From contig JASHOA010000014.1 of the NCBI GenBank assembly GCA_030041375.1, forward strand, positions 1 through 64,000: DNA of 64,000 bases. Reading direction: 5' to 3'. Positions 14,844-48,161 of this stretch are shown here, piece by piece (position 1 is the first letter of the stretch; every line of letters begins with the position of its first letter). Under the pieces are notes generated by a model. That model was not told the DNA's origin and did no database searches. It was given only the letters and a program-made list of their open reading frames with translations. The translations under genes and the position numbers were made by a program. Source of the stretch: Acetobacteraceae bacterium. Its GTDB lineage: Bacteria > Pseudomonadota > Alphaproteobacteria > Acetobacterales > Acetobacteraceae.

Positions 14844-14978
14844 CTAGTGTCCTGCCCCCGACGTTTGCTGCCGCCGGCAGCAAACAAAAGGGGATCGGCA
14901 GGCCACTGAAAATAAAGAGGTGTGTGCCGACCGCTAGGATGCATCCTACGGTATCAAGCGTTGGTGTCGGCACACTAG
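14844..14978. repeat. Interspersed repeat family A, copy 1 (135 bp, CTAG-bounded)
   Basis: Begins and ends with CTAG (14844-14847, 14975-14978). It contains a perfect 10-bp-stem hairpin with a 3-base loop (14863-14885), a second pair of 10-base arms (14922-14931 and 14966-14975) and a 14-base palindrome (14935-14948) inside it. Nearly identical sequences are at 38368-38502 and 41007-41141. It lies between the convergent thiG and acyl-CoA synthetase genes and supplies the last ten codons and the stop of the latter. Confidence 0.93.
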
Positions 14979-30541: not shown

Positions 30542-30727
30542 ATGAGTGTGCAGTCTCGGCTTTCCGCCCTGAAAGAGCGCCACGCCAGCCTCGAGATGCG
30601 GATCGCCGAGGAGGATCAACGACCCCGCCCGGACAGCGAGACCTTGGGCCGGCTCAAGCGGGAGAAGCTGCGTGTCAAGGAGGAGATGGAGCGCCTGAGG
30701 AACCAGGAAGAGGGGAGCACGGACTAG
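30542..30727 (+). CDS. DUF465 (YdcH-like) small coiled protein, copy 2
   Basis: A 61-residue protein: SRLSALKERHASLEMRIAEE and LGRLKREKLRVKEEMERLR are the two helices of DUF465, the second more basic. Divergent from a paralogue, an arrangement often seen for this family. GGGGTCTCG precedes the ATG. Its TAG stop (30725-30727) is part of the first CTAG of repeat B copy 1, so the repeat starts exactly at the end of the gene. Confidence 0.87.
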   Translation: MSVQSRLSALKERHASLEMRIAEEDQRPRPDSETLGRLKREKLRVKEEMERLRNQEEGSTD

Positions 30728-30830
30728 CCCGCGATCGCCCGAGGCGGAATCGTCGGAGGGCGTGAATCGCGGGCTCGTATAAACCACGAGACCGGTGTCG
30801 GGCTGCACAGTCAGCCCGACACGGGTCTAG
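30724..30830. repeat. Interspersed repeat family B, copy 1 (107 bp, CTAG-bounded)
   Basis: Begins with CTAG (30724-30727, containing the stop codon of the DUF465 gene) and ends with CTAG (30827-30830). It holds two hairpins: arms AGCCCGCGAT/ATCGCGGGCT at 30726-30735 and 30766-30775, and an 11-base perfect stem with 6-base loop at 30795-30822. The same 107-bp unit recurs at 38265-38371 and 48055-48161. It lies between convergent genes. Confidence 0.93.
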
Positions 30831-37908: not shown

Positions 37909-37977
37909 GCGTTGGTTATGGGGGTTCCTCCCCCGTGTTGGCAACGCCGGCTTGGCGGTCGGCGCGAAACGGCCGAT

Positions 37978-38268
37978 ATGTGCGCCATGCAAACCCGGGC
38001 CGAACGCATCGAGCGTCTCCTTCGGACGCGTTTTGCACCAAGCCGGATCGAAGTTCATGACGACTCCGCGCGCCACGTCGGCCATGCCGGCGCCCGCCCG
38101 GAAGGGGAGACTCATTACTCGGTGCTGCTGGTCTCGGCTTCGTTCCGCGGCCAGAGCCGCGTGCAACGGGCGCAGGCAGTGCACGCGGCTCTGGCTGCGG
38201 AATTCGGTAGCGGGCTGCACGCGCTTTCGCTCGCGCTCTCGGCTCCCGGCGAGGAGCGGGAGGGCTAG
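37978..38268 (+). CDS. bolA: BolA-family protein
   Basis: A 96-residue BolA: helix ERIERLLRTRFAPSRIEVHD, the loop ARPEGETHYSVLLVS, and RVQRAQAVHAALAAEF. BolA proteins bind [2Fe-2S] clusters with monothiol glutaredoxins, or DNA. Two starts are possible (37978 and 37987). The TAG stop (38266-38268) belongs to the first CTAG of repeat B copy 2. The length and the last residues (GEEREG) look natural, so the repeat sits precisely at the gene end. Confidence 0.92.
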   Translation: MCAMQTRAERIERLLRTRFAPSRIEVHDDSARHVGHAGARPEGETHYSVLLVSASFRGQSRVQRAQAVHAALAAEFGSGLHALSLALSAPGEEREG

Positions 38269-38371
38269 CCCGCGATCGCCCGAGGCGGAATCGTCGGAGG
38301 GCGTGAATCGCGGGCTCAAATAAAGCACGAGACCGGTGTCGGGCTGCACAGTCAGCCCGACACCGGTCTAG
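38265..38371. repeat. Interspersed repeat family B, copy 2 (107 bp)
   Basis: Begins with CTAG 38265-38268 (containing the bolA stop) and ends with CTAG 38368-38371, which is also the first CTAG of repeat A copy 2. Same two-hairpin structure and length as copies 1 and 3. Confidence 0.93.
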
Positions 38372-38502
38372 TGTGCTGCCCCCGACGTTTGCTGCCGCCG
38401 GCAGCAAACGAAAGGGGATGAGAGGCCACTGAAAATAAAAGAGGTGTGTGCCGACCGCTATGGTGCATCCTACGGTATCAAGCGTTGGAGTCGGCACACG
38501 AG
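38368..38502. repeat. Interspersed repeat family A, copy 2 (135 bp)
   Basis: Starts with the CTAG shared with repeat B copy 2 and ends CGAG (38499-38502), a one-base variant of CTAG whose last G is the first base of the next gene's GTG start. Internal changes include an added A and a lost base that cancel, keeping the total length at 135. Confidence 0.92.
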
Positions 38503-40443: not shown

Positions 40444-41010
40444 ATGTCGGACGCCAGAGTGCTCCATGTCGTCTCGCTGCTCGGCAGCCTGCGCAAGGGA
40501 TCCTTCAACGCCATGTTGGCGCGCACGTTGCCGGCACTCGCGCCCCCGGACATGACCATCACCCCGGCCCCCTCGATCGGCAATCTCCCGCTCTACAACG
40601 CGGATCTGCAGGCCGAGGGTTTTCCCCCTGCGGTCACCGCGCTGGCCGGCGCAATGGCCGCAGCGGACGGCGTGATCATCGTCACGCCCGAATACAACTA
40701 CTCGATCCCCGGCGGCCTCAAGAACGCGATCGACTGGGTGTCGCGCCTTTCCCCGCAGCCCTTCTCCGGCAAGCCGGTCGCGCTCGCCTCCGCCTCGCCG
40801 GGCGGCCTCGGCGGCGCCCGCAGCCAGTACCATCTTCGCCAGGTCATGGTTTTCCTCGAGGCCTATGTGCTGAACCGGCCCGAGGTGATGGTTCCGGCTG
40901 TGCAAACGAAGGTGGATGCAGCGAAGGGCGAAATCACCGACGGGCCGACGCGCGAGATGATCGCCGCCGAGCTGAAGGCGTTCGCGGCCTTCATCCGGCG
41001 CCTCTCCTAG
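40444..41010 (+). CDS. NADPH-dependent FMN reductase (flavodoxin-like fold)
   Basis: A 188-residue flavoprotein: LLGSLRKGSFNAMLARTLPA binds FMN phosphate, VIIVTPEYNYSIPGGLKNAI is the isoalloxazine loop, and GGARSQYHLRQVMVFLEAYV follows. Members reduce FMN, quinones or metals such as chromate; the substrate cannot be named. GGAGGTATT precedes the ATG. The TAG stop is part of the first CTAG of repeat A copy 3. Confidence 0.92.
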   Translation: MSDARVLHVVSLLGSLRKGSFNAMLARTLPALAPPDMTITPAPSIGNLPLYNADLQAEGFPPAVTALAGAMAAADGVIIVTPEYNYSIPGGLKNAIDWVSRLSPQPFSGKPVALASASPGGLGGARSQYHLRQVMVFLEAYVLNRPEVMVPAVQTKVDAAKGEITDGPTREMIAAELKAFAAFIRRLS

Positions 41011-41141
41011 TGTCCTGCCCCCGACGTTTGCTGCCGCCGGCAGCAAACGAAAGGGGACCAGCAGGCCACTGAAAACAAAGAGGTGTGTGCCGACCGCTAG
41101 GGTGCATCCTACGGTATCAAGCGTTGGAGTCGGCACGCTAA
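41007..41141. repeat. Interspersed repeat family A, copy 3 (135 bp)
   Basis: Starts with CTAG 41007-41010 (containing the FMN-reductase stop) and ends CTAA (41138-41141), a one-base variant. The hairpins are as in copy 1. An 11-base-stem hairpin follows immediately. Confidence 0.92.
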
Positions 41142-47922: not shown

Positions 47923-48061
47923 TCAGCTGCCGCTGAACCACTTGCAGCCGCGATCCTCCCGGAAGCCGCCGGGATAGCGGTTCGTGACAGAGAGCACGGT
48001 GATGAATTTCGGATCCTCGAAGCCGCGCCTGGTCGGAATGCGGATCTCGAAGGGATAGCCC
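47923..48061 (-). pseudogene. C-terminal remnant of a sulfite-oxidase-family molybdoenzyme
   Basis: Forty-five codons ending in TGA at 47923-47925 read GYPFEIRIPTRRGFEDPKF then VTNRYPGGFREDRGCKWFSG, the characteristic C-terminus of sulfite oxidase-like molybdopterin oxidoreductases (pattern GYP...R.PT..GF..PK....VTN.YPGG...D.G..WFSG). Upstream the frame enters repeat B copy 3 at its ATAG end and no further homology follows. The 5' part of the gene is lost, with the repeat at the break. Confidence 0.82.
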
Positions 48062-48161
48062 GCGATCGCCCGCGACGGAATCGTCGGAGGGCGTGAATCG
48101 CGGGCTCGCATAAACCGCGAGACCCGTGTCGGGCTGCACAGTCAGCCCGACACGGGTCTAG
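48055..48161. repeat. Interspersed repeat family B, copy 3 (107 bp)
   Basis: Starts ATAG (48055-48058, one-base variant) and ends CTAG (48158-48161). Same two hairpins as copy 1. It borders the molybdoenzyme remnant on one side and, 2 bases further, the stop of the small gene 48164-48388 on the other. Confidence 0.92.

Follow-up and report, generated by a model that had tools for sequence, protein, structure and literature searches.

Two families of short two-hairpin repeats meet in one CTAG beside bolA and follow a common TA-centred target rule in an Acetobacteraceae genome

The window, a stretch of 64,000 nucleotides from the genome of an Acetobacteraceae bacterium, contains the gene bolA and, at the 3′ end of its reading frame, two adjoining non-coding repeats, here called B and A. 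Reading the sequence directly, we find that B with its edges (38265–38371) and A with its edges (38368–38502) overlap by exactly one CTAG, at 38368–38371, confirming the preliminary description, in which the CTAG that ends B was also taken as the CTAG that starts A. Table 1 lists the parts of this junction together with the other copies in the window. An Rfam search of the window returned only a tRNA. In a sister species (genome G003) bolA is followed by neither repeat. The empty site there reads GGTTAGTGCGG, with TTAG as its tetramer, and a 286-bp ungapped alignment of the two genomes runs through it. The bolA stop codon has remained intact in the window because the TA at which insertion occurred was duplicated. 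Both elements would thus have arrived after the split from G003; loss of both from G003 without a trace is less likely. The preliminary description had proposed looking for genomes with only one of the two repeats at bolA; G003, compared here, has neither and so does not tell the order of entry.

Table 1. Features of the B–A junction at bolA and further copies of both repeats in the window
Feature	Position	Strand	Basis	Remark
Left edge CTAG	38265–38268	.		TA 38266–38267: target copy on the left side of B
bolA stop codon TAG	38266–38268			bolA ORF 37912–38268; stop survives insertion; same stop at the G003 empty site
Repeat B proper, 101 bp, G...C	38268–38368	+	DNA fold	Two hairpins and AATAAAG linker
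B-alpha, first half of B	38268–38327	+		Hairpin and linker; also solo and in tandem
CGAG joint of the B halves	38328–38331	.		Decayed CTAG; A inserted exactly there at L032
R, second half of B	38329–38368	.		Near-perfect palindrome; also solo at L033/L130
Common CTAG of the B–A junction	38368–38371	.		Shared TA 38369–38370
Repeat A proper, about 129 bp	38371–38499	+	DNA fold	Two hairpins and AAATAAAAGAG linker
Two-base joint of the A halves	38444–38445	.		GT here; probable TA remnant
CTAT, decayed internal CTAG of A	38458–38461	.		Insertion site or chimera joint at L289, L290, L293
CGAG, right edge of A	38499–38502	.		Second target copy, TA mutated to GA
Further full B copies	30724–30830, 48055–48161
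B half copies (B-alpha alone)	31955, 33206, 44898			Half proper from 31957, 33208, 44900
Further A copies	14844–14978, 41007–41141

Folded as DNA, B reaches −43.3 kcal/mol (z = −9.1) and A −36 kcal/mol (z = −6.6), and in both two hairpins are joined by an AATAAAG-type linker. The halves also occur apart: B-alpha stands alone within the window and also occurs in tandem, R is found alone at locus L033, and arrays built only of the alpha half of A are present in another congeneric genome (G001). Where the halves of A meet, the two joining bases are TA in 9 of the 54 copies scanned, and GT, CA, TG, GC, GA or GG in others; this dinucleotide (38444–38445 and its equivalents) is hypervariable while the bases flanking it are conserved. 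Most simply, A and B can both be taken as composites of two parts that began as neighbours with a common TA, which later decayed. Across related Acetobacteraceae the pairing of the first hairpin has been kept by compensatory changes (24 cells changed on both sides, against 5.9 in shuffles), and the second arm has an unrelated sequence. Elements that resemble A and share its first arm and linker were seen at L218–L264 (clean1818), L229 and L250 (BA309) and L249 (H1_MAG_00024). Their second arm is mostly GTGTCCCGATTCCG...CGGAATCGGGACAC, they end at CTAG-like sites and most contain GANTC.

We scored the abundance of both families across the whole 4.54-Mb genome. The B motif has 311 matches at up to two mismatches and the right end of A has 50 at up to three. 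The corresponding reversed-pattern controls give 1 and 0, so this abundance is not due to chance. Most copies of A and of B stand alone, unpaired. Counts of the B motif in the other congeneric genomes are 62 in G003, 5 in G001, 4 in G002 and 0 in G004, the last two genomes being less complete; B has expanded in the lineage of the window.

The edges of the copies define the target. In about 75 aligned copies the edge tetramers vary mainly as Y-TA-G on the left and C-TA-R on the right. Among the 26 single B copies in which both TA dinucleotides are intact, the outer bases (left/right) are C/G in 14, T/G in 6, C/A in 5 and A/G in 1, and none of these 26 has equal non-CTAG edges (such as TTAG/TTAG or CTAA/CTAA). 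We also searched G003 for the joined flanks of occupied sites, as a source of empty sites. At L021, where the edges are CTAG and CTAA, the empty site is CTAA; at L016 and L026 it is TTAG, and for the B copy at 30724 in the window it is CTAG. In a minority of the G003 empty sites the tetramer departs from YTAR (CTTG, CCTG and CGGG are examples), which requires later mutation in one lineage. The unequal edges, taken with the empty sites, indicate that TA alone is duplicated and that the outer bases come from the target. The element proper therefore runs from G to C, in a YTAR context with CTAG preferred. The earlier view of CTAG as the duplicated target has accordingly been revised to TA within YTAR, whereas the claim that A and B obey one target rule is supported by both the edge statistics and the empty sites. 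A 4-bp duplication of CTAG or YTAR was considered and rejected, given the unequal edge tetramers and the empty sites. Outside the elements, the window (about 63 kb) contains 11 CTAG, 9 TTAA and 724 TA; TTAA was not seen as a target among the sites read, though it is nearly as frequent there as CTAG. Nor is there an excess of insertions at stop codons: a long frame ends at the edge TAG in 38 of 87 clusters, compared to 49% for random positions.

The search for other junctions between the two families showed that 17 of the approximately 50 A copies are joined to a B through a common edge tetramer, and the order and orientation of the partners vary. B precedes a full A in the same direction in eight cases and follows it in three; two pairs are convergent with A on the left, one is divergent with B on the left, and one A lies inside a B. 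At the two remaining loci B is joined to only the right part of A. At some loci the order of entry can be read. At L013 the window genome carries B–A and G003 only A; at L129 G003 has nothing but half of an A, which in the window genome is preceded by B. At both, B came second. At L003 one B in G003 corresponds to two tandem B copies in the window genome. At L032 the decayed CTAG that joins the two halves of a B is precisely where an A is placed. In these cases one element has directly entered the edge or, at L032, the inner joint of another, which supports the reading first proposed for bolA. Further repeat families in the window genome, at L006, L019, L023 and L293, adjoin B or split A at CTAGs.

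At L289 and L290 we find a chimera with the left end of B and the right end of A, 97% identical over 146 bp in unrelated flanks, and the L289 site is empty in G003. On the simplest reading this chimera probably moved as one piece, the alternative being independent origin, and the ends of B and A are probably able to move together.

We estimated how many A–B junctions would be expected from the 11 background CTAGs of the window, 311 B copies and 50 A copies. This rough estimate, which is not a fitted model, gives about 15–30 if CTAG is targeted and about 1 if any TA is, against the 17 observed. Counting at least one CTAG edge per B copy, B edges make up an estimated one third or so of all CTAGs in the genome. 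The B-before-A order, found in 8 of the 15 full junctions, is commoner than the others, an excess that purely random landing does not predict.

Taken together, we consider it likely that two non-autonomous families of two-hairpin elements, inserting at the TA of YTAR sites, have used each other's edges as landing pads and later become fused. Here, A and B would be insertion elements of roughly 100–130 bp, each entering a YTAR site at its TA, with CTAG strongly preferred, and duplicating that TA. Since G is the first base of each element and C the last, insertion into C-TA-G would rebuild CTAG on both sides, so that each copy would become a landing pad for the next. As CTAG is rare in the background, element edges would account for many of the CTAGs present, and B–A, A–B, B–B and A–A neighbours with a single CTAG between them would then arise without any special affinity. 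Decay of the TA at such a joint may finally fix a pair as a single element. In a more far-reaching version, which we regard as possible but doubtful, one transposition system recognises the arm structure and moves two-arm elements whose ends differ, and, with the target restored at every insertion, ever larger composites (first alpha with beta, then B with A) build up and subsequently move as single elements.

A different explanation takes the whole 238-bp BA unit as a single mobile composite, with A and B as its parts. The absence of both from bolA in G003 is what one-piece arrival would give, B before A is the commonest order, and a related chimera, B with the right part of A, occurs at two loci. 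We nevertheless think this explanation improbable, as the solitary state of most copies and the existence of A–B, inverted and nested arrangements argue against it, and at two B–A loci G003 has A (L013) or half of it (L129) without B. Moreover, in the eight B–A pairs variation in B does not correlate with variation in A (Mantel r = 0.23, p = 0.22). That BA is the mobile unit everywhere, the finding that was to refute the preliminary description, proved false when tested, while composites do occur.

Strong hairpins with a tetranucleotide at their foot, the compensatory changes that keep hairpin pairing across Acetobacteraceae, and tandem clusters like BIMEs might also suggest REP-like elements, moved as single-stranded hairpins by a RAYT (a Y1/HUH transposase). 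This we judge very unlikely: the window's own genome, which is 99.99% complete, has no match to Y1_Tnp (PF01797), a profile that in a control matches E. coli and others. With such movement the empty site would also correspond to the left tetramer, whereas at L021 it is the right outer base that equals that of the target.

Recombination or slippage between CTAG-containing repeats could in principle produce junctions with no insertion at all. Tandem first-half arrays with joints that lack CTAG are consistent with such a process; one is at L297 in the window genome (57-bp period), and alpha arrays in G001 have joints of the same kind. Given these CTAG-free joints (L297, L208–L211), a second array-making route must exist. 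As a general source of the junctions we find recombination or slippage just as improbable as movement by a RAYT, since recombination at 4-bp identities explains neither why empty sites are precise and have a single tetramer containing TA, nor the A placed exactly between B halves at L032, and empty sites at B–A loci exist in relatives. The arrays at L208–L211 in G001 are likewise first-half tandems, and periods across L297 and L208–L211 are 57 or 72 bp. The least probable explanation is that A and B are IS5-type elements that duplicate 4 bp of a YTAR target, as reported for MITEPsy1 of Pseudomonas syringae, a small inverted-repeat element with CTAG or YTAA as its target (PMC3189936), because 12 of the 26 intact B copies have edge tetramers that differ, in every case at the outer base, and the CTAG and CTAA edges at L021 correspond to an empty CTAA.

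Elements of the IS630/Tc1-mariner group insert at TA and duplicate it (PMC2170065). By profile search, IS630-type DDE transposases (PF13358) are present in all five congeneric genomes. L268 and L275, the full IS630 copies with both ends readable, have CTAG on either side. Ends of two IS630 types adjoin A or B at CTAGs (the D-type at L006 and L019, the L269-type at L014). From the target rule, the presence in the genus and the CTAG placement, we infer that A and B are most likely moved by one or more transposases of the IS630/Tc1-mariner type. As to the suggestion that A and B perhaps share the same enzyme, the B/A-end chimera at two unrelated loci speaks for it. A search for an autonomous IS630 with A or B ends found none; the best end match was 9 of 15 bases, which is within background. 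The ends of the G001 IS630 at L275 (suggestive: GTGTNNTGCC) were considered as the counterpart of the A ends and rejected at this level. The neighbouring families C and D match the ends of the L268 IS630 at 12–14 of 15 bases. Two IS630 copies in the window genome, L111 (G000:C49) and L112 (G000:C30), are cut by contig ends, so intact copies have probably been collapsed in the assembly. The genus holds at least three more CTAG-flanked repeat families, with ends GTACCCGGAATCACAC..., GTACCCCGAATTAAAC... and GAGCAATTTCCGTTCGCC..., and the end GTACCCGGAATCACAC agrees with an end of the L268 IS630 (G003) at 14 of 15 bases.

The terminal inverted repeats of A are marginal (GTGTCC versus GTGTGC), and those of B do not match (GCCCGCGATC versus GACCCGTGTC), although matching ends would normally be expected of an element moved by an IS630 enzyme. 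B is therefore not filed as a standard MITE, though it works like one.

Several known systems resemble these repeats in part. IS630 of Shigella sonnei prefers the TA inside CTAG (Tenzen and Ohtsubo 1991, as cited in PMC2170065), the same rule as for A, B and the IS630 elements of this genus; it is autonomous and has a transposase, whereas A and B code for nothing. The Correia/NEMIS elements of Neisseria are likewise small, palindromic, present in many copies and bounded by terminal TA, but have one pair of terminal inverted repeats instead of two separate arms. In Streptococcus pneumoniae, the RUP repeat, for which IS630-Spn1 is regarded as the mobilising element (PMC2229807), resembles A and B in its length (about 107 bp), its high copy number, its TA target and a probable IS630 enzyme. 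Its terminal inverted repeats match those of its IS630 partner, whereas B has no matching ends and no partner was found for A or B.

The likeness to the CcrM-associated intergenic repeats (CIR) of Caulobacter (Chen and Shapiro 2003, as reviewed in PMC2229807) covers more features. As that review describes them, CIR are about 100–110 bp long (against 100–130 bp for A and B), with two arms made of long inverted repeats and joined by a linker, terminal TA and GANTC motifs; as for B, no matching terminal inverted repeats are reported there and the host is an alphaproteobacterium. The comparison is one of descriptions and not of sequences. Copies in the window contain 14 GANTC in 914 bp (15.3/kb), approximately sevenfold more than the 2.2/kb outside them; B carries GAATC, usually twice, and A usually GGAGTCGG. 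For CIR the review lists the target duplication and the mode of movement as unknown, whereas for A and B the empty sites show duplication of TA, and shared edges and chimeras are described. Evidence for a target duplication is thus now supplied for two-arm, CIR-like elements. That an element with G at its start and C at its end, placed at TA, rebuilds CTAG on both sides would be a simple and testable rule for the clustering and fusion of short bacterial repeats, and if one enzyme does move ends of different sequence, this poses a real mechanistic question.
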